Source: a virus. Taken from it: 35,758 nucleotides of DNA. Of the stretch, positions 128-35,758 are shown piece after piece. Numbering within the stretch: position 1 is the first letter of the stretch; every line of letters starts with the position of its first letter. Both the position numbers and the translations under genes were made by a program. The stretch covers positions 1 to 35,758 of the IMG/VR virus record IMGVR_UViG_3300037858_000046; one strand, 5' to 3'. The notes below the pieces were generated by a model, which was not told where the DNA came from, made no database searches, and saw only the letters and a program-made list of their open reading frames with translations.

Positions 128-178
128 CAGGTTCCGGCGGGCGTGGTCGATCGCATCGCGCTTGTCGTAGAACACCAT
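1..178 (-). CDS. N-terminal end of the 1,046-residue polyvalent internal virion protein (continues at 35631)
   Basis: The ATG at 178-176 overlaps the TAA of the preceding 867-residue gene in a TAATG junction, the same coupling seen at 2781 and 3557. Forty codons from this ATG stay open and in frame to the ATG at 58, which corresponds to 35689 at the far end. The true protein therefore starts here (MVFYDKRDAIDHARRN) and runs across the contig join to 32669. A start at 35689 alone would lose 40 residues. The rest of the protein is described at 32669-35758. Confidence 0.9.
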   Translation of the reverse strand, partial: MVFYDKRDAIDHARRNLSTGLPTSFAQNFAATYDQFVQEEMSVSELGQLSESFETFADR

Positions 179-2781
179 TAGTCAACGCCCTGCAGGAGAT
201 CGTCGACGCGCCGCTCGTCCCGCTGCGTCTCGGCCTCGGTGCCTTCGCCGCGCGCCGGCTGGTTAAGCAAGTCCATCGTGTCCGCGGTCGCGGCCTCGGC
301 CGCCTCCAGGCTGTCATACCGTGGGAACGTCTCGCCGCGTTGGCGCTCCCACTGGCGGGCCACGCGCCCGGCCTGATCTTCGGACAGCATCACCGGGCCA
401 TCCTCGCTCTGCCAAACGGTCGGCACGGTGATGAACGTGTTGTCGTCCAGCTGCACGGCGGTCGCCATATCGCGGCCGCTGGTCCCGCCGTCCGGCATGG
501 TTACGGCCTCGTCGTCCTGCAGCGGCCGCAGATCGCTCATGCCGCTCACGCTCTCGACGCGCTGCGGGGTGCCAAGCTCGACCGGCTCGCCGCCGCCGCC
601 GGCCCCGGCGCTGCCGCGCGCGCTGCTCTGCTGGCGCCGCTCGCCTGTCCCGGCCGAGGTGCTGCCGTTGCGGATGATGCGCTTGAGATCGAGCTCGTAG
701 GGATCGCCGTCCGGGCCCTGGGCGTAGCCGTTGCCGACCTTCACGAGATACAGGCCGTCGCCGACCGTCTCCAACGTGCCATAGCGGCGCAGCCGATCGG
801 CCGTCACCGGCTTGTCGCCGGCTTTCGGCATGACGCCACCGACCGCAAGATCCTCGTTCGACAGGTTTTCCATGACCGTCTCGAACCGCCCCTCGTCCAT
901 CCCGCGCATCGGCGCGACGACCTTCTGGCCGTTCCACTCGAACACGCCGCCGGTCACTTTGCGCAGGCTGTCCTTGAAGTCGGACACGTCGAAGTCCTGC
1001 CGGGTGAACTCGCCGCGCTGCATCCGGCGCCGTGCGTCCAAGGCCAGGGCCGCTTTGATCGTCGCGTCGTAGGCGTCCGGGTTCCAAAACATACTGTCGC
1101 CGAGGACGTCGTTCGCCGCGCTGATATAGTCGGACGGCGACGGCATGGCCTGGGAACTCTCGGCGTTGTCGATGATGTCCTTCCCGCGGACGATGTTCTT
1201 CGCCAGCTGGAAGTCCTCGCCCGCGATCGAGGCCGCGACGGCGAACTCTGGATTATCGGGCGCGAGATCCGACATCAGCTGCCGCGTGTCCGGGCCGCCG
1301 AGGTTGTTGTGGATCGTCCCCATGAGCGAGATCTTGCCCTCGGTGTCCAGCTGCGACAGCCGGCCCTGGATCATATCGACCTCGTCCTGGGTGAAGCCGT
1401 GCGTCTGCACGCCGTAGTGCGCCTCGATCTTTTTGGCGGCGGCCTTGCGCTGCTGGAACGTCGAGGGGTCGTCGAAGTCGAGCGGCTGCGCGTTGACCAG
1501 CCCGCGGCGCGCGGCAAGGCTGACCGGATCCTGCTTCAAGCCGGTCACGGTGTCGTTGTGGACGCGGTTCAGCCGCTCCCGGAGCTCGACGCCGCGGCGG
1601 GTCTGCGGCGGCTCCTGGGCCAGCGAGTTGAGGATCTGCTGCTGTTGCGCCGGCGCCATCTTGCCGAACTCGGCCGTGCGCTCGCGATCCGTCTCGGCCG
1701 CCTGCAGCCGGCCCTGGAGCTCCGGGAACTGGCTGGTCGCGCGGCGCAGCTGCTCCAGGTTGGCCGGCTCGCCGCCATGCTCCAGGATATACGTCGCATC
1801 GTCGACGCGGTCCTCCAGCTGGTTCCGGCGCGCGCGGACCTCGGCCTCGTTCGAGCGGATCACCGACCGCATGTTCGAGGCCAGCTTCTCCACCTCGTTT
1901 AGCGAAAACGGGCTCTGCGTGTTGTCGCGCTGATCCTCGACCCAGGAGTTGAGAAACGCCCGCTTGTCGTCGGCGCGCTGGAACTTCCCCATGACGCGCG
2001 CGGTGCGCACGCGCTGGTCAAACCGCTCGACGATCCGCTGCATATCCTTGATGGAGAACGTACCCGTCCGGGTCGGGTCCGCCTCCATTTCGACGCCCTT
2101 AAACTCAAAGGCCCCTTCGGGGCCCTGGGCTGCGAGCATCTGGATTAGGTGTGTGCGTTCGCCTGCAAGGTTTTCGGCGGCTTCCTCGTCGATGTCCTGG
2201 ATCCGAGCGAGCCGTTCGGACGTCCGGAAGATCTGATCGACCGTCTCCAGCGCCTCGACCTCATACTCGGCCGCCTGGATCTCTCGGTAATTCTGCCCCG
2301 CCTGCCGGATCCGCGGCATGGTGTGGCGCTGGAACGTCGCATCGAAGTCCTGGACAAGCTCGGGCGCGGCCTGCTGGAGCTCTTTGACCATGCCCTCGCG
2401 GTAGCCGCGATAAGCGGCCTCCAGGTCGTCGGGCGAGGCGCTGTTCTGCTCGTAGAGCTCGTCGACCTTCCGGCGCGCGCGGATCTCCAGCTGGTTGAGA
2501 AACGACTGCTTGCCGGCGCGGTTGAAGGCGTTGGCTGCGATCGTGTCGCCTTCCATCGGCTCAAAGCCGGGCTTTTGCCCGGCGATCGCACCCTTGATGC
2601 TGGCCTCGCGCCGGGTCTGCTCGTCAAGCCGATCCTGCATCTGGCTCGACAGCCGGAACATGCTATCGGCGAAGTCCTCGGCCGCGCGCGCGCTGCCTTC
2701 CGAGAACCGGATCTCCGGGATCTGCTGGACATCGGGCTCGCCACGAACGCGGGTGCGGCCGAAACTGGCGCGCTCGGCCAT
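178..2781 (-). CDS. Large internal virion (ejection) protein, 867 residues
   Basis: This is a long, charged, glutamine- and glutamate-rich protein with extended predicted helices over roughly residues 30-420. It lacks a signal peptide and clear membrane segments. A Gly/Ser linker lies near residues 690-720. The C-terminal part (about 770-840) carries TVPTVWQSEDGP followed by a spaced FPRYDSLEAAEA, a motif pattern common at the ends of phage structural proteins. It sits directly after the gp14-like protein and before the polyvalent protein, the place of the inner core proteins (gp14, gp15, gp16) in T7-like phages. By position it is a gp15-like core protein that probably leaves the capsid with the DNA. 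I see no lytic transglycosylase motif. It joins both neighbours by TAATG overlaps (2781 and 178). Confidence 0.7.
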   Translation of the reverse strand: MAERASFGRTRVRGEPDVQQIPEIRFSEGSARAAEDFADSMFRLSSQMQDRLDEQTRREASIKGAIAGQKPGFEPMEGDTIAANAFNRAGKQSFLNQLEIRARRKVDELYEQNSASPDDLEAAYRGYREGMVKELQQAAPELVQDFDATFQRHTMPRIRQAGQNYREIQAAEYEVEALETVDQIFRTSERLARIQDIDEEAAENLAGERTHLIQMLAAQGPEGAFEFKGVEMEADPTRTGTFSIKDMQRIVERFDQRVRTARVMGKFQRADDKRAFLNSWVEDQRDNTQSPFSLNEVEKLASNMRSVIRSNEAEVRARRNQLEDRVDDATYILEHGGEPANLEQLRRATSQFPELQGRLQAAETDRERTAEFGKMAPAQQQQILNSLAQEPPQTRRGVELRERLNRVHNDTVTGLKQDPVSLAARRGLVNAQPLDFDDPSTFQQRKAAAKKIEAHYGVQTHGFTQDEVDMIQGRLSQLDTEGKISLMGTIHNNLGGPDTRQLMSDLAPDNPEFAVAASIAGEDFQLAKNIVRGKDIIDNAESSQAMPSPSDYISAANDVLGDSMFWNPDAYDATIKAALALDARRRMQRGEFTRQDFDVSDFKDSLRKVTGGVFEWNGQKVVAPMRGMDEGRFETVMENLSNEDLAVGGVMPKAGDKPVTADRLRRYGTLETVGDGLYLVKVGNGYAQGPDGDPYELDLKRIIRNGSTSAGTGERRQQSSARGSAGAGGGGEPVELGTPQRVESVSGMSDLRPLQDDEAVTMPDGGTSGRDMATAVQLDDNTFITVPTVWQSEDGPVMLSEDQAGRVARQWERQRGETFPRYDSLEAAEAATADTMDLLNQPARGEGTEAETQRDERRVDDLLQGVD

Positions 2782-19217: not shown

Positions 19218-19607
19218 TCAGTGGATCGAGGTGACGTTGTCGCCGTCGCTTGGATCCGCCGAGATCTCGCCGTCCTCCTGCTCGTCCTCGTCCTTGGACT
19301 GCTTCTGCTCGGCGGCCTTCTGCCGGGCGAGGAAGTCCTCGACGTCGTCCTGCAGCGGCAGGCCGAGGGCTTCGCGGACGATCTGATACGCCATATCGAA
19401 GCCGCGGCGCTGGTCGGGATCCATCTTGGCGTAGGCGCGGGCCATCTGCAGGGCCTTGCGCGGGATCCCCTTGGCCTCCAGCTGCGATCGGATGCTCTCA
19501 GCGTCCTCGTTCATGGACGACCGCTCGCTCTCGATCTTGTCCAGCTGCTCGCACAGCTGCGACACCTGCTGCTTGGTTTCGTCGAGGTTGTGGTTCTTGG
19601 TCGACAT
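19218..19607 (-). CDS. Coiled-coil protein, possibly UPF0335/GapR-like, 129 residues
   Basis: The N-terminal half is a coiled coil (KQQVSQLCEQLDKIESERSS). It is followed by LEAKGIPRKALQMARAYAKM, then DPDQRRGFDMAYQIVREALG. That order, 'coiled coil, then AKG-x-x-x-KAL, then DP-x-x-R-x-x-x-x-x-x-Y-x-x-AlG', recalls the UPF0335/GapR family of DNA-overtwisting proteins of alphaproteobacteria and their phages. The acidic C-terminal tail (KDEDEQEDGEISADPSDGD) is extra. The match is by eye and weak. TGATG overlap with the 74-residue gene fixes the start. Confidence 0.55.
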   Translation of the reverse strand: MSTKNHNLDETKQQVSQLCEQLDKIESERSSMNEDAESIRSQLEAKGIPRKALQMARAYAKMDPDQRRGFDMAYQIVREALGLPLQDDVEDFLARQKAAEQKQSKDEDEQEDGEISADPSDGDNVTSIH

Positions 19608-19831
19608 CAGCTGTCGCCCTCCTTGGCGTTGGTCTGCTGCTCGTTTGGCAGGGCCACGGTAAGCCGGGCGCTGGCGCCGTCGCCGCCGTTCATCTGGACC
19701 GTGATGTTCTCGCGGTCGCAGACCGGCAGCTTGTGGGTGCGCCGGACCCGCGGCGTGGTGAGGTAGGTCTTGATCGCGTCCTCGATGTCCGCGGGGGACA
19801 ATTCGACGTCGACGCTCTTTCTCTGCTGCAT
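19607..19831 (-). CDS. Small protein, 74 residues
   Basis: A short protein with an N-terminal amphipathic helix (LSPADIEDAIKTYLTTPR) and a beta C-terminal half (ENITVQMNGGDGASARLTVA). The ribosome site is AAAGGTGA before the ATG at 19831, and it is coupled to the next gene by a TGATG overlap. Similar short proteins are common in phage early regions, but I cannot name a function. Confidence 0.6.
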   Translation of the reverse strand: MQQRKSVDVELSPADIEDAIKTYLTTPRVRRTHKLPVCDRENITVQMNGGDGASARLTVALPNEQQTNAKEGDS

Positions 19832-19834
19832 GGT

Positions 19835-20272
19835 TCACCTTTCGACTGATGTTCGCCGCTTCTGTTCACGAGCGCAGGTGCGGCAATTTCTGCGCTCGGC
19901 TCCGTTCGACCGCTTGATGATGGTGTTCTCTGGCGTAAACGGATGCCCTCTCTTGCACCGACGCTTCCGGCCGTTGCGATGGTTCTTGGTGTAATCGGCG
20001 GCCGCGACGTTGTCCGCGTGCCTGACCTGCTGCAAATGGTCGGGATTGATGCACGACCGCTCGCGGCAGCGATGGTGGAGCTCGAAACCGTCCCGGATCG
20101 GACCGACGAACGTCTTGAAGCTGGCACGGTGAGCGAGGCTTTCGCCATCAACCGATCCGACCTTCCCATATCCGCAGCGGTCCACGTGTCCTATCCAAAT
20201 CCAGCAGCCGGTGTTCGGCTCCGGCATAGACAAATCGGCCAAGCGTTCGGAAATCGGTTTATGCGCTGGCAT
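19835..20272 (-). CDS. HNH endonuclease, 145 residues
   Basis: The N-terminus has CWIWIGHVDRCGYGKV and LAHRASF, and the core is ELHHRCRERSCINPDHL with H66/H67, N76 and H79 as the likely HNH active site. A second part binds zinc through CKRGHPF (C106, H110) and CRTC (C130, C133). It cuts DNA using a divalent metal. The type, with 'CW.W.G', is that of free-standing homing-like HNH enzymes, which often sit as mobile genes among early phage genes. Its G+C content looks lower than that of its neighbours. The ATG at 20272 overlaps the previous stop in a TAATG junction. Confidence 0.88.
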   Translation of the reverse strand: MPAHKPISERLADLSMPEPNTGCWIWIGHVDRCGYGKVGSVDGESLAHRASFKTFVGPIRDGFELHHRCRERSCINPDHLQQVRHADNVAAADYTKNHRNGRKRRCKRGHPFTPENTIIKRSNGAERRNCRTCAREQKRRTSVER

Positions 20273-23693: not shown

Positions 23694-24755
23694 ATGGCAG
23701 GACAGGAACTCCAGGTCGTCGAGCAGCAGCTTAACCAGCTGGCCCCGCAATTCGAGCAGGTTCTCGAACCGCTCGGGATCCCGCCGGCCCGCATTGTGCG
23801 GACGGTGCTGGTGTCGCTGGAGCGCACGCCCAAGCTGCTCCAGTGTAACCGGCAGTCCGTGTTGAACGGCGCCATGACGGCCGCGTGCCTCGGCCTCGAA
23901 GTCGACGGCGTCACCGGCCAGGGCTTCTTGATCCCGTTCAAGGATCAGGCGCAATTCGTCGTCGGATATAAGGGCTACAACACGATGGCGTCCCGCGCCG
24001 GCTTCACGGTGAACGGCGGTGTCGTGCGCGAGGGCGACGACTTCGACTTCGACGAGGGCTCGCAGCCCTACGTCCACCACAAGCGCAAGCTCGGCGAGGA
24101 AAGCAAGCGGCAGATCATCGCCGCCTGGGCGACGGCGACGAAGCCGGGCGCGACCCCGATCGTCTCGATCCTGTCGCGGGATCAGATCGACGCGATCCGC
24201 GGCAAGTCGCCCGGCGCGCGCAAGCAGGACAGCCCTTGGAACGACCCCTCGATTGGCTTTCCTGCGATGGCCGAGAAGTCGGCGAAGCGCCGGCTCGCGC
24301 GCAACATGCCGCTTAACACGTTTCTGCAGGCCGCCTCGCTGGAGGAACAATTCGAGGAACGCGGCAAGCCGTCCTGGATTGCGCCCGGCCGCGGCGTGGT
24401 CGCTGACGGCGAGGTAATCGAGCCGGAGACGGTCGACGCTGGCGAGCCGACCGCGCCGGCCGGCAACGCCCGCGCGCTGACCGAGGGCGATCGGCAGTAT
24501 TTCCTGATCCACCTGCCCGACCGGGATCCCAAGCAATTCGCGGACTTCGACCGCTGGTGCGCTCAGTGGGATCTGTGGATCCAAAAGGCGACGGACGCCG
24601 ACCGGCTCGCGAAGCTGCAGGATCTCAACCAGGACACGTTCGATCAGCTGCACGATCAGGGCTACGACGTGAAAGACGTCGAGCGGAAGCTGTCGCAGCG
24701 CGTCCGAGAGCTCCGCGGCAACGGTGACGGCCAGCAGGAGGGCACGCTCGTATGA
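23694..24755 (+). CDS. recT: RecT family single-strand annealing protein, 353 residues
   Basis: Clear RecT hallmarks are SVLNGAMTAACLGLEVDG (about 60-78), then GFLIPFKDQAQFVVGYKGYN and TMASRAGF, KLGEESKRQIIAAWATATKP and FPAMAEKSAKRRLARNMPLN. RecT binds single-stranded DNA and anneals complementary strands, working with the exonuclease encoded just upstream. The C-terminal 90 residues are extra and acidic to helical. Together with the exonuclease this gives the phage recombination for concatemer formation with a host polymerase. It ends in an ATGA overlap with the next gene. Confidence 0.95.
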   Translation: MAGQELQVVEQQLNQLAPQFEQVLEPLGIPPARIVRTVLVSLERTPKLLQCNRQSVLNGAMTAACLGLEVDGVTGQGFLIPFKDQAQFVVGYKGYNTMASRAGFTVNGGVVREGDDFDFDEGSQPYVHHKRKLGEESKRQIIAAWATATKPGATPIVSILSRDQIDAIRGKSPGARKQDSPWNDPSIGFPAMAEKSAKRRLARNMPLNTFLQAASLEEQFEERGKPSWIAPGRGVVADGEVIEPETVDAGEPTAPAGNARALTEGDRQYFLIHLPDRDPKQFADFDRWCAQWDLWIQKATDADRLAKLQDLNQDTFDQLHDQGYDVKDVERKLSQRVRELRGNGDGQQEGTLV

Positions 24756-25120
24756 CTTGGGTCGTGAACGAGATCTCGCCGCGCATGGTCCTCGAAGCGA
24801 ACAAGGCGATCGAGGCCGGCGCACCTGCCCGCGACGTGTTGCGTCGGGCCCTCGACGCCGCGCCGCGGCCGGAGCGAGGACTGACGCCGCGGCAGCGGCA
24901 CGTCCTGTCGTACCTGATCGACCGCGAGCAGGCCGGCCAGCCGACGCCGAGCTTCCAGGAGATCGCCGACGCGCTCGGCGTGACCAGCCGCAGCCAGATC
25001 GCCCGCTACCTGGATTGCCTGGAGCAACGCGGGTACATCACACGCCAGCCAGCAGGGGCCCGGTCGATCCGCGTGATCGCACGCCCGCAGGAGCAGGGAG
25101 GGCAAGACGATGGGCGATAA
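24752..25120 (+). CDS. LexA-like winged-helix protein lacking the peptidase domain, 122 residues
   Basis: Residues 40-110 match the DNA-binding domain of LexA: LTPRQRHVLSYLIDREQAGQ, then PTPSFQEIADALGVTSRSQI, ARYLDCLEQRGYITRQPAGA and RSIRVI. The Ser/Lys autoprotease domain of LexA is absent. It could compete with host LexA at SOS sites or control phage promoters; neither is shown. It is in the recombination operon between RecT and two small genes, coupled at both ends. Confidence 0.82.
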   Translation: MTWVVNEISPRMVLEANKAIEAGAPARDVLRRALDAAPRPERGLTPRQRHVLSYLIDREQAGQPTPSFQEIADALGVTSRSQIARYLDCLEQRGYITRQPAGARSIRVIARPQEQGGQDDGR

Positions 25121-30230: not shown

Positions 30231-32672
30231 CTATTCCTCTATCGCGGCTTCGAGGTTGGGAGCGCGGTGCGGCGTGGTTTCGCCAGGCCTCCAGAAATAT
30301 CGCTGGCCGTATTCTCTTTGGGCGAAGTTTTGCATCCGGCGGAAGTCGTCGCGGGCTTTCGGGTCGACGAACTGCTGCAGCTGATCCAGCACGAGCCGTT
30401 CAAACGCTGCCCGACCGTACCACAGCGAGCCACCCGGCATATATCGCCCGGCAAAGTCGATGATCTCGCGGCCGATCTGTGTATCCTCGCCGAGCGCGAG
30501 CTCCTGCACGTTGCCGACCGTCAGCCGCGCGACGTTGTCGCCAAACTCCGCGACCGGGCCCGCGAACGTCATGGCCGGCCCGCGGCCAAAGCGGTTGACG
30601 TCGGCCAGTAGAAAGTCGCCGAAGATGCCGAGCCCGCCGCCCTGCATCATCGCGCTCATCCAGAAGCGCCGGCCCTGGTCGTTCTCCGGGTTCATGTTGA
30701 CCGGATCCTTGCCGCGCTGGATCTGCTTCGCCTGATAAGCGAACGCGCCAAGGACCGTCATGGTGATGAACATATTGGCGAGGTAGCGGCCGCGCGCGAG
30801 CGGCGTCTCCTGGCTCACACCGCGCATGAGGTGGGTCGCGATCACCGTCACCGGGAACGACTTGTAGAGCGCGATCGAGCGCGTGATCTCGCCGATAAGG
30901 CCGCCCGGCCGGGTGCCCTGGGTCATGATCGCGCGCGTCCGGGCGTCGACCGATGGAACGGCGAACTCCTGCTCGGTCAGGACCATCTGCTGCAGCCGGT
31001 TGGCCGCCTCCAGGCCGCCCGGCTGTTGCGCGATGTTGTGCGACCACACGAAATCCGCGCCGCGGTGCCGCTTGACCGGCGCTTTCCGGATCGTGTCCCA
31101 AGTATCCGGGCCGATCGCATATCGCTTCATGGATCGCTGCAGCGGCTCAGGGAGCTCCCGGAACGTCTTGTCGGTGTTGCGGCCCAGGAAGCCCAGGAAC
31201 TCGGCACCGAACGCCCAACGGCCGGCCTGTGTCCAGGGCGACAGGAGCGAGGCGCGCATGGTCAGATCCGAGATCGCCTTCGTGATCCGCGGCCCCTGGA
31301 TCTCGCCGAGGAACCGCTGTTGCGCCAGCGCCATCGAGCTCCAGTTTTCGGCGATCAGGCCGGCCTGGACCGCAAACTTCTGATCCTCGACGTTGAGCGG
31401 GTTCATGAACCGAAGCTGCTGGCGAACGAGGTTCATCGTCGGCAAGCCGTTGTGTTCCCGGGCGATCTTCTGAAAGCCCAGGTCGGTCGTCGCCGACAGG
31501 AACGCGCCGCCAAGCTGCGCCGAGGTGAGCAGGTTGCGCATCCCGCTCATGAAGCGCGCGACCGGCTCATTGTGGGGCGAGTGAACGCGGTCGGTCAGGA
31601 CGGCGAAGGTGTCCTCGATCAGCTTGATCCGACCGCCGGGGGCCCGCTCGTTATTGAGCGCCGCCTCGCGCCGGATCGTGTCGGTCATGCGCCGAACCAT
31701 CGCGTCCGGGTTGGGGCCCAGGACTTCCAGCAGGGCGATGTCCTTCGCCATCGTGTCGATGTGGTTGACCATCGTCGTGTAGACGTCCTCGCGGCCGAAC
31801 TGCCGCTGGTACGCCAGCCAGTCGTCCGCGCTGCGGAACGTCAGGAACCGATGGTCGGCGTGCCGGTTCGCCAGCTTGCGCTTGCCGGCCGCGCCCGGCG
31901 TGACGTCGATCAGCCCGTTCGTGCGGATCCGTTCGTAGGTCTGATCTAGTAGGTCGGCGAGGCGCGCGTCGGACAGCGGCCGGCCCGTCTCGAAGTCGAC
32001 CATCTTCGAGCGGTCCAGCTTGGGCCAGATGAAGTTGATCCACTCCTGCTTGCTAACCTGCATGACCTTGTTCTGGTCGTGCATCTGCGGCAGGCCCCAA
32101 TCCTCGCGCTTGGCGATCTGCCCGCCGGCCGCGTTGAACCGCTTGCGGAGATACTCGGCCGTGTCGGCCCACTGTTTCGCGACCGTCTTGGCGACGCCGT
32201 CGCCGCTGTCCTCGTTGAATAGCTCCCGGACCATGTTCTCGGTCTTGCGCACCTGGGGGACGACACCGCCGCGTGGCTTGAGCTCCTTGAGGCCGTCAGC
32301 CCATCGCGCGTGCGCTTGGCCGAGGATCGTCCGGTGACGGCTGTCGACGTTCGACCACGCCGCGCGGTCGCCGATGTCCCGAACAAGATGCGTGATCGCG
32401 CCGGTCGCCAGCCCTTTCGGGTGCGCCCGCATGTTGTTCTCGATGCGGTGCGTGGCGACGATCTGCAGGTTCGCCAGCCGCTTCTTGCGTGCGGCCTCGG
32501 CCTCGACCACGCGCTGCGCCTCGCGGGCGGCCTGGGTGCGCGCCTGATCCGGTGACAGCGTCTCGCCGAGCTCCCGCTCCATTTCGTCGACGAGATCCCG
32601 GAGCTCGTTGAACTCGTCCTCGGAGATCCGGCCGGCGCGCGCCTTTTCCCGCAGGCAGTCGATCACGCTCAT
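30231..32672 (-). CDS. Large internal virion protein, LPD38-like, 813 residues
   Basis: The ATG at 32672 makes an ATGA overlap with the polyvalent protein stop, so I prefer it to the GTG at 32681. The sequence begins with a coiled coil, then has an acidic and helical body: RKTENMVRELFNEDSGDGVA, RFLTFRSADDWLAYQRQFGR, and hydrophobic parts QLGGAFLSATTDLGFQKIAR and LANMFITMTVLGAFAYQAKQ. The end YFWRPGETTPHRAPNLEAA is typical of a family of large phage inner proteins annotated with large-polyvalent-protein domains (LPD38-like). Position after the other core proteins and before the tailspike fits a T7 gp16-like ejection protein. Confidence 0.75.
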   Translation of the reverse strand: MSVIDCLREKARAGRISEDEFNELRDLVDEMERELGETLSPDQARTQAAREAQRVVEAEAARKKRLANLQIVATHRIENNMRAHPKGLATGAITHLVRDIGDRAAWSNVDSRHRTILGQAHARWADGLKELKPRGGVVPQVRKTENMVRELFNEDSGDGVAKTVAKQWADTAEYLRKRFNAAGGQIAKREDWGLPQMHDQNKVMQVSKQEWINFIWPKLDRSKMVDFETGRPLSDARLADLLDQTYERIRTNGLIDVTPGAAGKRKLANRHADHRFLTFRSADDWLAYQRQFGREDVYTTMVNHIDTMAKDIALLEVLGPNPDAMVRRMTDTIRREAALNNERAPGGRIKLIEDTFAVLTDRVHSPHNEPVARFMSGMRNLLTSAQLGGAFLSATTDLGFQKIAREHNGLPTMNLVRQQLRFMNPLNVEDQKFAVQAGLIAENWSSMALAQQRFLGEIQGPRITKAISDLTMRASLLSPWTQAGRWAFGAEFLGFLGRNTDKTFRELPEPLQRSMKRYAIGPDTWDTIRKAPVKRHRGADFVWSHNIAQQPGGLEAANRLQQMVLTEQEFAVPSVDARTRAIMTQGTRPGGLIGEITRSIALYKSFPVTVIATHLMRGVSQETPLARGRYLANMFITMTVLGAFAYQAKQIQRGKDPVNMNPENDQGRRFWMSAMMQGGGLGIFGDFLLADVNRFGRGPAMTFAGPVAEFGDNVARLTVGNVQELALGEDTQIGREIIDFAGRYMPGGSLWYGRAAFERLVLDQLQQFVDPKARDDFRRMQNFAQREYGQRYFWRPGETTPHRAPNLEAAIEE

Positions 32673-35600
32673 GACAGGCACCCTTTGAACTCGTCGGCGA
32701 CAGTCTGCGTTCGGTCGGCGTCGTCCAGCAGATCTCGCGCGCTCATGGTTTCAGCCTGGAGCTCGCCGGTGTCTGGATCAACGCGCTGCCCGACCGGGAT
32801 CTGAAGATCGGCGTTGCGCGCTTCCGTGCGGGCGAGGAAATCCTGATAACCTTCCTCGAACATTTCCGTCGCCCGCGCGACATCGGCCTCCATTTCCTGC
32901 CGTTCGGCCGCGGTGAGCTCGGTCTTGCGCTTCCATTTGTCGTAGAGCTTGTGCGCGTCCTCCTGCACGCGCCCAACGCCCTCGGGGACCAGCTGGATCT
33001 CGGCCGTCATGCCGTTGCCGAGGTTGACCTGCATGTGAACGGCGCGGTATCCGCCTTTGGGCCGTTCCAGGAAATCGTCGACCTCGACGACGTCGAAGCG
33101 CCGCCGGATCTCGTCTTGCAGCGCGTTGAGGTTGGCTTTGTCGCCCGCCCACACGCGGCCGCCGATATAGTCCGAGATCGTCTCCGGGGGACGGCCCTGC
33201 TCGATCTTGCCGTTTAGGCCCGGCCGGTCCTTCACGCGCACGCCGACAACCTGGGCGTCGTCCAGCGGCCTTGTGATTTCGTCGAGCGTGGTGCGCAATC
33301 CAGGCTGCAGACGGTTGGCTTCGTTCAACAACGCGCCTACATTATTAGATGCCTGGAGTATCTTCCGACCTGTTGAGGGATCTATGGCCCCGACCGAAAA
33401 CTCCCCGAACGTCCTCTCGCTCGCCAAGCTAGACGGTGCCGTTGCGCGGCTCGTCGAACGTCCGGACGGCGGTGCTGTCGTCGAAACCTGGGACGGTGCG
33501 GCTTGGCGCGAAGGCGGCGCGGACGTCGCCTCGGTGCTGAAAGCGCCGGAGCCCACGGCCGCCGACCTTGCCGAGCTCGGGATCTCGGCCTGACCGTCTA
33601 GGATCCGTTGCGCTTCGCTTGCTACGGCGTCGTCGAACTCCTGCGACGTCGTCCGGCCGGCTTCCATCATGTCGTCGAGGGTCTGCTCGGCGTACTCGGC
33701 CCGCGCCGCGCCCGCGTCTACGTCCGCGGCCGTCTCCCCTGCAACATCTTCACGACCGCGTCCGCCTCCGCTAACGCGCTCCCCATCAAGAGCGCCGTCG
33801 CGAGCTGCCCGTCTGACAGCTGAGAGAAAGTCGTCTGTGGCGCCTGCGAGCTTCCGGTCGCCGCGCTTGAACGATCGGGCTGCTGCGGTGAGGGCGTCTG
33901 AGATGTCGCCTTTCCGGCTCGCGAGCTTTTGGATCGCCTGGAGGATTTGCTCATCTTGGGAAAGCCTCTGCTGGTTGGCCTGGGTCGATAGCTGGTTGCC
34001 GGCTTCCTGGATCGTGTCGTCGCGCGTGACCAGCGTCTTGAACGTCTGCCGGTCCTGCCGGATCCGGCGCAGCGCGTTGTCGAGCAGCCGGGCCCGCTCG
34101 TTGAACAGGCTCTCGGTGATGAACTCTTCGCCGAACAGCGTCGACTGCGTCTCCCGGCTCATGCCGGCTTCCATCGCCTGCCGGATGATCGCCTCGGCCT
34201 GCGTCGTGTTCGCCGGGTTGGTCTGCGACAGCACGCGCATGACCGCTGCCTGCTCGGCCGGATCGTCGATCAGCCGGCCCACGATCGCCGCGTAGTTGGC
34301 CGGCACGACCTCGTTCACGGCCATGCCGAACGCATCGTCGCCCAGGTTGGCAAGCTCCCGGCCCTGCCGCACGAGCGCGCTACGCGGCGGGAGCTCCGGC
34401 AGGCCGCGCTCGCCCATTTCCCGGATCACCTTAGCCGTGTCGACGGCCGTCCCGGTCCCCTCGGCGATGTTCTTGAACGCGGCAATCGCGCGCGCCTGCT
34501 CGGCGGTGATGCCGTCGCTTTCGCGCAAGATGTAGGCGTTAAGCCCGACGTTCTCCTGCCCGCTGGCCTTCGCGCGCTTGGCGAGGGCGAGGCGCTGGTG
34601 GCCGTCCGCGATGAACACGCGGCCGTCCTCCTGCTCGAACACGAGGGACACGCCGGCCAGCCGCTCGTCGAACCGGGTCACGCCCTGCAGCCGCTCGGTG
34701 ACGCCGAACTCGTCGCCGCCGCTTTTGAACTGGAACCGCTCGGCGTCGATCTCGACTTGATCCGGATCAAATCTGGACAGCCCGCTCGCCGCGAACTGCT
34801 CCTGGACGCCATGCGTCGGCGGATCGAGGTTCGGCGGGACGGTGCCCTCGCGCGTCACATGGGCGAGGGTGTCGTTCATGGTCGACGTGTAGGCGGCCGC
34901 CGCGGCGTCGTCGTCCTCTCGGTAGGGGTTGCGTGCTTCAACGTCGAGCTCACGCTCCAGCACGCGCTCTGCGGCCTGCTCCTGCGCATTGGGCCCCCGA
35001 TGTGCGTCGGGGGCCCGGCTGGCGCGGCGGAAGTCGGTAAGCAGCTGGCGTCTTGTCTGAGGGAACTTGCGGATCGCCTCGATCGCCTTGCCGCCGCCGC
35101 GCAGCGCCGCCACGCCGGCCGCGCCGCCCGCGCCCGCGAGGATCGTGTTCAGCACGGCCTGATCGACCGTGTACGGGCTGTCGATGTTCTCCTTGAACTT
35201 GAACACCTGGGGCTGGATCAGGCCCTCGACGCCGGAGCCGATCAGGAACTCGGTCAGGCCGGCCCGCAGGATCGACTGCCCGGCTGACGCGCCGAGCGGC
35301 AGCGAGGCGAGGATCATCGGGTCAGTGACGCCGCCGGCCAGCGTCCCGGACACCATGCCGACGTCGCCGAGGAAGGTCGACCGCGAGCGAATGTCGGCCA
35401 GCCGCTCGCGCCGCTCCTTGCTCTCGACGGCCAGGGCGTCGAACACGCGCTGGCGCGTCGGGAACGGCGGTAGGTCGTCCTGGAGCTCGGGGTTCTCCTG
35501 GGCGCGCTTCTTGAACTGCTCGTGCGCGCGCTCCATGAGCTCCTGTCGCTTGGCCTTCGGATCCGCGTAGGGAGCGCCGAGCGGGACTGCCTTGTACGGG

Positions 35601-35758
35601 TTGGTCAGGCGCTCGCCGGTCCGTTCCTCGAAGCGGTCGGCGAACGTCTCGAAGCTCTCGGACAGCTGGCCGAGCTCCGAAACGGACATTTCCTCCTGGA
35701 CAAACTGATCGTAGGTCGCCGCGAAGTTTTGGGCGAACGACGTCGGCAGGCCGGTCGA
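32669..35758 (-). CDS. Polyvalent internal virion protein with ParB-like and RelA/SpoT-like domains (N-terminus at 178-1)
   Basis: With the 40 residues encoded from 178, the protein has 1,046 residues. Near 160-240 two Gly/Ala-rich hydrophobic stretches (MILASLPLGASAGQSILRAG, LNTILAGAGGAAGVAALRGG) suggest membrane contact. Residues 349-430 form a ParB-like domain, with FIADGHQRLALAKRA (about 399-413) as the core. A long helical part follows. Residues 740-800 are Ser/Ala/Pro-rich and disordered. Residues 846-962 (32924-33274) match RelA/SpoT synthetases: VRVKDRPGLNGK (K860, K868), DYIGGR (D880, R885), GGYRAVH (Y921, H925), AEIQL (E937, Q939) and EDAHKLYDKW (H953, Y956). Such large multi-domain phage proteins are thought to enter the host with the DNA. 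It may make or alter a guanosine nucleotide alarmone, or pyrophosphorylate another target. Confidence 0.82.
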   Translation of the reverse strand, partial: STGLPTSFAQNFAATYDQFVQEEMSVSELGQLSESFETFADRFEERTGERLTNPYKAVPLGAPYADPKAKRQELMERAHEQFKKRAQENPELQDDLPPFPTRQRVFDALAVESKERRERLADIRSRSTFLGDVGMVSGTLAGGVTDPMILASLPLGASAGQSILRAGLTEFLIGSGVEGLIQPQVFKFKENIDSPYTVDQAVLNTILAGAGGAAGVAALRGGGKAIEAIRKFPQTRRQLLTDFRRASRAPDAHRGPNAQEQAAERVLERELDVEARNPYREDDDAAAAAYTSTMNDTLAHVTREGTVPPNLDPPTHGVQEQFAASGLSRFDPDQVEIDAERFQFKSGGDEFGVTERLQGVTRFDERLAGVSLVFEQEDGRVFIADGHQRLALAKRAKASGQENVGLNAYILRESDGITAEQARAIAAFKNIAEGTGTAVDTAKVIREMGERGLPELPPRSALVRQGRELANLGDDAFGMAVNEVVPANYAAIVGRLIDDPAEQAAVMRVLSQTNPANTTQAEAIIRQAMEAGMSRETQSTLFGEEFITESLFNERARLLDNALRRIRQDRQTFKTLVTRDDTIQEAGNQLSTQANQQRLSQDEQILQAIQKLASRKGDISDALTAAARSFKRGDRKLAGATDDFLSAVRRAARDGALDGERVSGGGRGREDVAGETAADVDAGAARAEYAEQTLDDMMEAGRTTSQEFDDAVASEAQRILDGQAEIPSSARSAAVGSGAFSTEATSAPPSRQAAPSQVSTTAPPSGRSTSRATAPSSLASERTFGEFSVGAIDPSTGRKILQASNNVGALLNEANRLQPGLRTTLDEITRPLDDAQVVGVRVKDRPGLNGKIEQGRPPETISDYIGGRVWAGDKANLNALQDEIRRRFDVVEVDDFLERPKGGYRAVHMQVNLGNGMTAEIQLVPEGVGRVQEDAHKLYDKWKRKTELTAAERQEMEADVARATEMFEEGYQDFLARTEARNADLQIPVGQRVDPDTGELQAETMSARDLLDDADRTQTVADEFKGCLS
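33384..33593 (+). CDS. Possible small gene antisense to the polyvalent protein, 69 residues
   Basis: On the plus strand an ATG at 33384 follows a GAGG ribosome site and an unusually AT-rich stretch (ACATTATTAGAT, 33339-33350). The frame encodes MAPTENSPNVLSLAKLDGAV, then ARLVERPDGGAVVETWDGAA and WREGGADVASVLKAPEPTAA. It looks like a folded protein with balanced composition. The minus-strand reading over the same DNA is a Ser/Ala/Pro/Thr-rich linker, more like a shadow. Third codon positions coincide on the two strands, so GC bias alone can mimic coding here; this keeps confidence moderate. No family recognised. Confidence 0.4.
   Translation: MAPTENSPNVLSLAKLDGAVARLVERPDGGAVVETWDGAAWREGGADVASVLKAPEPTAADLAELGISA
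35632..35758. repeat. Terminal direct repeat, right copy
   Basis: This is the identical partner of bases 1-127. One copy should be removed to obtain the circular genome. Confidence 0.95.

Follow-up and report, generated by a model that had tools for sequence, protein, structure and literature searches.

A RelA/SpoT nucleotidyltransferase domain in a putative ejection protein of an uncultured epsilon15-like podophage

The DNA analysed here, referred to as the window, is the whole of IMG/VR record IMGVR_UViG_3300037858_000046, which is 35,758 bases long and has a G+C content of 66%. The record carries an exact terminal repeat of 127 bp and is therefore probably a complete circular assembly. Its genes are those of a podophage whose structural module resembles that of epsilon15, and they include the terminase small and large subunits, a T7-type head-tail connector, a T7-type capsid assembly protein, a Phage_capsid_2 capsid, tail tubes A and B, a gp14-like internal protein, a phrog_992 head protein, a polyvalent protein (P0001), a phrog_684 virion protein and a tail spike. 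The window further encodes RecE/RecT, an M15 peptidase and a GapR-like protein. An alphaproteobacterial host is hinted at by the GapR-like DNA-binding protein (19218-19838, minus strand) and by relatives of the RelA domain described below, which occur in two MAG contigs whose titles name Alphaproteobacteria and Magnetospira. Next to RecE/RecT lies the gene of a small protein whose DNA-binding domain is of the LexA type (24752-25120, plus strand).

The gene for P0001 crosses the circular junction. Its frame begins with an ATG at 178..176, runs down to position 1 and resumes at 35631, continuing to 32669, and this reading across the 127-bp repeat upholds the length of 1,046 residues given in the initial annotation. 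The gene and its two neighbours are as follows:

178..2781, minus strand: upstream head/internal protein, phrog_992, 867 aa, directly preceding the polyvalent gene on the circular map
32669..35758, minus strand: polyvalent ejection-type protein P0001, 1,029 aa within the window and 1,046 aa across the circular junction
30231..32681, minus strand: downstream virion structural protein, phrog_684, 816 aa, overlapping the end of the polyvalent gene by 13 nt

P0001 has four parts, namely an N-terminal region, a ParB/DdrB-like module, a flexible linker with the RelA domain, and a short conserved tail. These can be placed on the window as follows (all on the minus strand):

35087..35743: N-terminal region of the ejection protein, residues 6-224, with homology to an N-terminal region in Vibrio phage ZCVPP1
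35102-35158: hydrophobic segment, residues 201-219, with a hydrophobic segment at the equivalent position in the orthologs
33671..34984: ParB/DdrB-like module, residues 259-696, with the ParB fold at about 327-530 (phrog_10691, E 1.3e-71)
33401..33595: linker between the ParB and RelA domains, residues 722-786, of low complexity and low model confidence
32804..33376: RelA/SpoT nucleotidyltransferase domain, residues 795-985 as modelled, with the Pfam match at 32960-33238
32672..32779: C-terminal tail conserved in orthologs, residues ~994-1029, with ..SARDLLDDAD....F.GCLS at its end

The N-terminal region is 27% identical to the ZCVPP1 protein (E 7e-21). The ParB-like domain that had been proposed from the sequence is present, since the region at about 327-530 matched the ParB structures 7bnr and 6t1f in Foldseek. 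A Pfam scan of P0001 at E<=10 returned RelA_SpoT and a weak DUF1015 match only, and thus no MuF domain; NCBIfam gave a chance-level match only. The full-length model is poor in the N-terminal half (pLDDT 57.7 overall). With a ParB/DdrB-like module and a RelA domain in one protein of the head-tail module, P0001 is a polyvalent protein. The initial annotation had put the RelA domain at the C-terminus. It does lie in the C-terminal half, but it is followed by a tail of ~30-40 residues that is conserved in orthologs. The last ~30 residues look similar in relatives whether or not these carry the RelA domain, as seen at the C-termini of the SI2, ZCVPP1 and phiV10 proteins, and these shared residues are perhaps a packaging or assembly signal.

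The gene order at the locus is tail tube B, head protein, P0001, phrog_684 virion protein and tail spike. Eleven loci share it, either in full or up to the point where the contig ends, and no gene lies between the ejection-type protein and the virion protein in the query or the orthologous loci examined. The same order is found in phiV10, where the slot is filled by p19, which is similar to epsilon15 p16. P0001 thus resembles epsilon15 gp16 and phiV10 p19 in its position between a head/internal protein and the phrog_684 virion protein, and this synteny supports an ejection-protein context. By contrast, phiV10 p19 (600 aa) has no RelA domain in a profile search, and P0001 has no significant BLAST similarity to p19 (gp19). 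The assignment to the epsilon15 gp16 slot therefore rests on synteny and on the similarity to ZCVPP1, and not on homology to epsilon15 gp16.

Does the C-terminal half really contain an enzyme of the RelA/SpoT family? The nucleotidyltransferase proper spans residues ~795-945 of the 1,046. Against the PF04607 cut-off of 27 bits, the whole protein scores 23.6 bits (E 6.4e-5), the domain alone 27.6 bits and the genome search 28.6 bits (E 4.2e-8); the last two values lie over the cut-off, and chance is far from accounting for the match. When scanned independently, 20 of 22 homologues match the same family. P0001 itself found no match among PDB sequences by phmmer, whereas the family profile did: a profile of the 22 relatives matched solved (p)ppGpp synthetases, with E 4.5e-13 for YwaC/RelP, and the Tas1 toxin at 4e-4. 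Residues 795-985 were modelled with AlphaFold2 at a mean pLDDT of 94.7, and the model superimposes on Bacillus subtilis RelQ with Z 17.7 and an rmsd of 2.1 over 167 residues. RelP follows at Z 17, Tas1 and CapRel at about Z 13.5 (CapRel 13.4), and FaRel2 lower, at Z 7.7; the best structural matches are thus the (p)ppGpp synthetases RelQ and RelP. The structure comparison with RelQ, CapRel and FaRel therefore recovers the expected nucleotidyltransferase fold. From profile and model alike, we regard it as confirmed that residues ~795-945 form a RelA/SpoT nucleotidyltransferase.

The motifs named in the initial annotation are all present, in order, on the minus strand:

33230..33241: VRVK, with R841 and K843 equivalent to FaRel2 R64/K66, in the ATP (pyrophosphate-donor) site
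33206-33214: NGK, with K851
33155..33172: DYIGGR, with D863 (metal), G866 and R868 equivalent to FaRel2 D90/G93/R95
33035..33055: GGYRAVH, with Y904 (acceptor base) and H908, and with A where (p)ppGpp synthetases have S, as in PhRel
32990..33004: AEIQL, with E920 and Q922 equivalent to FaRel2 E145/Q147
32933-32962: EDAHKLYDKW

In the structure of FaRel2 with an ATP analogue, the site residues are R64, K66, S70, K74, R77, D90, G93, R95, Y128, E145 and Q147 (PMC11782079). Their counterparts by motif spacing are R841, K843, G847, K851, Q854, D863, G866, R868, Y904, E920 and Q922, so that nine of the eleven are kept in the query domain, the exceptions being S70 to G847 and R77 to Q854 in the donor helix. 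The claim that the metal-binding and stacking residues are present holds, as the catalytic set is intact, including D863 and Y904. Each position is covered by 33-35 distinct domain sequences, and in these K843, D863, Y904, R905, H908, E920 and Q922 never vary. Retention in the donor site is less complete, with R841 in 27 of 33 sequences and K851 and R868 each in 31 of 33. One ortholog clade (L029/L034/L035) retains the domain and has lost R841 and G866, and the orthologs L036/L038 retain it and have lost R841, K851 and R868. Because one clade has lost the first set of residues and another the second, the activity is not essential in all lineages. A degenerate relic was rejected for the query, in which the catalytic residues are all intact, though not for L036/L038. 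For eight pairs the domain gives dN/dS ratios of 0.06-0.29, a ninth pair having no synonymous change, and in each of them the ratio is lower than in the upstream rest of the protein; judged by these ratios, the domain is under purifying selection.

The third synthetase motif (syn3) deserves separate treatment. Most family members have Y-R-A-[VI]-H, whereas the aligned (p)ppGpp synthetases have Y-x-S-x-H and PhRel has Y-R-A-V-H. The PhRel subfamily is reported to pyrophosphorylate tRNA (PMC11559606), and the syn3 of Apk2 is G-x-N (PMC12226406). The difference between A-x-H and S-x-H is a hint, short of proof, that the acceptor may differ from that of the (p)ppGpp synthetases. A rule that would assign a G, A or tRNA acceptor from syn3 alone was not adopted; a swap of syn motifs in Apk2 did not convert the enzyme (PMC12226406).

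How widespread is the domain? Two profile scans of viral contigs found relatives in ~40 distinct IMG/VR contigs. A pattern scan of viral contigs with the single-sequence domain found no relative, and tblastn with the query domain or three other family members gave no match in 50,697 sequenced phage records. It was a weak plasmid match (archaeal element, E 1e-5) that seeded the alignment which reached the true family. The same ejection protein occurs in nine loci, most of them collinear over ~1,050 residues and some cut by contig ends, while eight loci have orthologs of 809-853 aa with the RelA domain and without the ParB module. Other carriers of the domain are proteins of 396-470, about 1,550 or 2,600-4,040 residues, and the giant ones include the polyvalent domains LPD38, ddrB-ParB, RadC and SNF2. 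Linkers related to that of P0001 travel with the RelA domain in other proteins. In a library of viral protein structures, the matches include proteins annotated as RelA/SpoT in uncultured Caudovirales, some of more than 1,000 residues. No RelA match was found in six related or reference loci, namely SI2, the stretch of 45A6 that was read, ZCVPP1, phiV10 and two faecal phage scaffolds. On this distribution, the RelA domain is a recurrent cassette and not unique to the query phage.

The cassette is also likely to move. In the domain tree, the query nests with the giant-polyvalent copies and a few other proteins (support 96/98), apart from the copies in its own ejection-protein orthologs, which argues that the cassette probably moves. 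Monophyly of the ejection-type copies is disfavoured by the AU test (p 0.00016 when every row is included, and more weakly, p 0.03, once the long rows are removed), where the grouping tested was prompted by pairwise identities seen first, so that the p-values do not come from a blind test, and where long branches are present. This amounts to moderate evidence that the RelA cassette has probably been exchanged between phages or gained more than once.

Among sixteen records (fifteen carriers and the window), two have a stand-alone protein of 174-185 aa with an HD_4 domain, resembling alarmone hydrolases and located away from the RelA domain:

G015 (genome of L045), C1:22579-22812, minus strand: HD_4 protein L091
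G012 (genome of L019), C1:14204-14437, minus strand: HD_4 protein L092

Such a protein could protect the producing cell. No HD_4 hydrolase is encoded in the window genome. The initial annotation had seen neither a hydrolase nor an antitoxin next to the domain, and the same result was obtained here, as the adjoining downstream gene encodes a virion protein. Its 13-nt overlap with the end of the polyvalent gene leaves no room for an immunity gene. Neither an adjacent antitoxin gene nor a fused neutralising domain, of the kind expected of a toxSAS, was found, and the arrangement is the same in orthologs.

Ejection proteins of podophages exit the virion and assemble into a conduit; in epsilon15, internal proteins are ejected, and T7 gp16 ends up with its C-terminal part in the cytoplasm of the host (PMC8954989). 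We consider it probable, if well short of assured, that P0001 is an epsilon15-like podophage ejection protein carrying a pyrophosphokinase of the small-alarmone-synthetase type as cargo, which would be injected and become active in the new host. In favour of this reading are the fold and its best matches to RelQ and RelP, the catalytic residues, the purifying selection, the shared gene order, the behaviour of the epsilon15 and T7 proteins and the hydrophobic segment; against it stand the lack of convincing BLAST similarity to phiV10 gp19, the two changed donor-helix residues, the donor-site losses in two ortholog clades and the A-x-H form of syn3. From virion location and entry to activity, acceptor and benefit, we infer the following steps. 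P0001 would probably be packed in the head and exit with or before the DNA. Its C-terminal half, ParB first and then RelA/SpoT, would come to lie in the cytoplasm of the cell just infected, in the manner of the C-terminal part of T7 gp16. There the domain would most likely move pyrophosphate from ATP to an acceptor 3'-OH. A guanosine nucleotide, giving (p)ppGpp, is ranked first among the candidate acceptors because of the profile and fold similarity, and the tRNA CCA end second because of the syn3 motif, followed by ATP/ADP. The benefit to the phage could be a brake on host transcription or translation at entry, or a shift in the GTP/ATP pool that could hamper defence.

Could the domain instead halt translation in the infected cell with no alarmone made, as a tRNA CCA pyrophosphokinase in the manner of toxSAS? 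The YRA[VI]H of most of the family is the motif of PhRel (mycobacteriophage Phrann gp29), whose subfamily uses tRNA (PMC11559606), the known (p)ppGpp synthetases compared here have S at that position, and CapRel matches the fold at Z 13.4. Against this, profile and fold scores are highest for RelP/RelQ and Rel and lower for CapRel and FaRel2, specificity is not set by a single residue, as the failed conversion of Apk2 indicates (PMC12226406), and no antitoxin is seen; we judge a tRNA-directed role rather unlikely. Another rival, in which the fold is conserved but has little or no catalytic activity and serves the ejection protein in assembly or in binding nucleotides or DNA, is distinctly improbable. 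L029/L034/L035 and L036/L038 do keep the domain without some donor-site residues, gene order is maintained where the contig shows it, and the L029 clade is under purifying selection (dN/dS 0.11-0.12). Yet the query and most members keep every catalytic residue, D863, Y904, H908, E920 and Q922 are invariant wherever covered, and the domain is not needed for assembly, because relatives without it exist in SI2, ZCVPP1 and phiV10.

There are two further rival explanations. The domain might work late in the producing cell, for example through a rise in alarmone, host slowing or superinfection exclusion, and not after injection. The gene does sit among the late structural genes, the producing cell has no immunity gene to protect it, and superinfecting phages are the targets of prophage-encoded CapRel and PhRel (PMC11559606). 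However, fusion to an ejection protein under a kept gene order would be an odd site for such an activity, free activity would burden late phage synthesis, and two carrier phages have the separate HD_4 hydrolase that could shield the producer, so that late action seems improbable. Alternatively, P0001 might be a polymorphic toxin of the MuF/Apk2 type, used by lysogens against competitors, as in Apk2, too, a head protein of a phage is fused to a RelA-like domain at its C-terminal end (PMC12226406). P0001 has no MuF domain, no immunity or hydrolase gene lies behind its gene, its syn3 is A-x-H and not G-x-N, and the RelA domain is not the end of the protein but is followed by the conserved tail; we give this explanation hardly any credence.

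The preferred reading, an injected pyrophosphokinase, can be extended beyond the query phage, though to this extension we give somewhat less than even credence. Widespread uncultured podophages might deliver an active alarmone or tRNA pyrophosphokinase through the DNA ejectosome before phage gene expression, with a cassette that is exchangeable and shared with giant polyvalent proteins; the erosion of the catalytic site in some lineages would then suggest an arms race.

RelA/SpoT modules in polyvalent phage proteins are already known. Iyer, Burroughs, Anand, de Souza and Aravind (2017) described them, among other places next to DdrB-ParB in Helicobacter prophages, and suggested that they enter together with the genome and manipulate the host in an alarmone-like way, altering its transcription and translation (PMC5512222). 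P0001 resembles their cases in having RelA/SpoT inside a multidomain phage protein, also beside a DdrB-like ParB. Those cases come from Spirochaete and epsilonproteobacterial (pro)phages and from MuF fusions (PMC5512222), whereas P0001 occupies an epsilon15-like ejection slot, has the domain between a conserved N-terminal region and a tail, and has counterparts in many uncultured phages. Of the initial interpretation, the fold, the intact catalytic residues, the ParB fusion, the lack of a neighbouring hydrolase or antitoxin and the ejection context are upheld, and delivery into the host and an effect on growth or defence would be proposals; the suggestion had moreover been made before (PMC5512222). 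A literature search found no paper on RelA domains in ejection proteins. New in the present case are the setting in an epsilon15-like ejection slot, the fact that it recurs among uncultured phages, a single syntenic slot in which the cassette may be present or missing, and the donor-site erosion in some lineages.

Compared with RelQ/RelP (PDB 5ded, 5dec, 6fgk, 6ewz), the domain has the same fold including the flanking helices (Z 17-18, rmsd 2.1-2.4 over ~170 residues), shares the donor-site and acceptor Tyr residues and likewise lacks an HD domain. It differs in its identity of ~20%, in YRAVH against YRSxH and EIQLVP against E.QIRT, and in being embedded in a virion-type protein of 1,046 aa. 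With the toxSAS PhRel (Phrann gp29), CapRel and FaRel2 it shares the pyrophosphokinase core and the catalytic residues, GYRAVH being common to it and PhRel, but P0001 is not a stand-alone toxin and has neither an antitoxin gene nor a pseudo-zinc-finger domain. MuF-Apk2 toxins make (p)ppApp (PMC12226406). Like Apk2, P0001 fuses a RelA-like domain to a protein of the phage head module; unlike it, P0001 lacks MuF and adjacent IapK/Aph1 genes and has another syn3 motif.

If the proposed mechanism is true, podophages would use their ejectosome to deliver an enzyme that produces a second messenger or modifies tRNA at time zero of infection, and a role would be explained for a portion of the long and variable C-terminal regions seen in ejection proteins. 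It would also allow a direct test of whether phages gain from imposing a stringent-like state. The one conserved slot, with its natural versions carrying ParB and RelA, RelA only, ParB only or neither, offers a ready comparison set.

Two further carriers of related domains can be added. A phage with a 51% identical capsid (L058, 14,582 bases) has a RelA-like domain in a 568-aa protein of other make-up. On an uncultured archaeon plasmid, LC711081, a protein of 1,004 aa (BDI55125; L012:2425-5436) contains a RelA-like domain related to the one described here (profile E 1e-20); read by eye, it also has a His-x-His..Ser..Asp stretch resembling that of a JAB peptidase.
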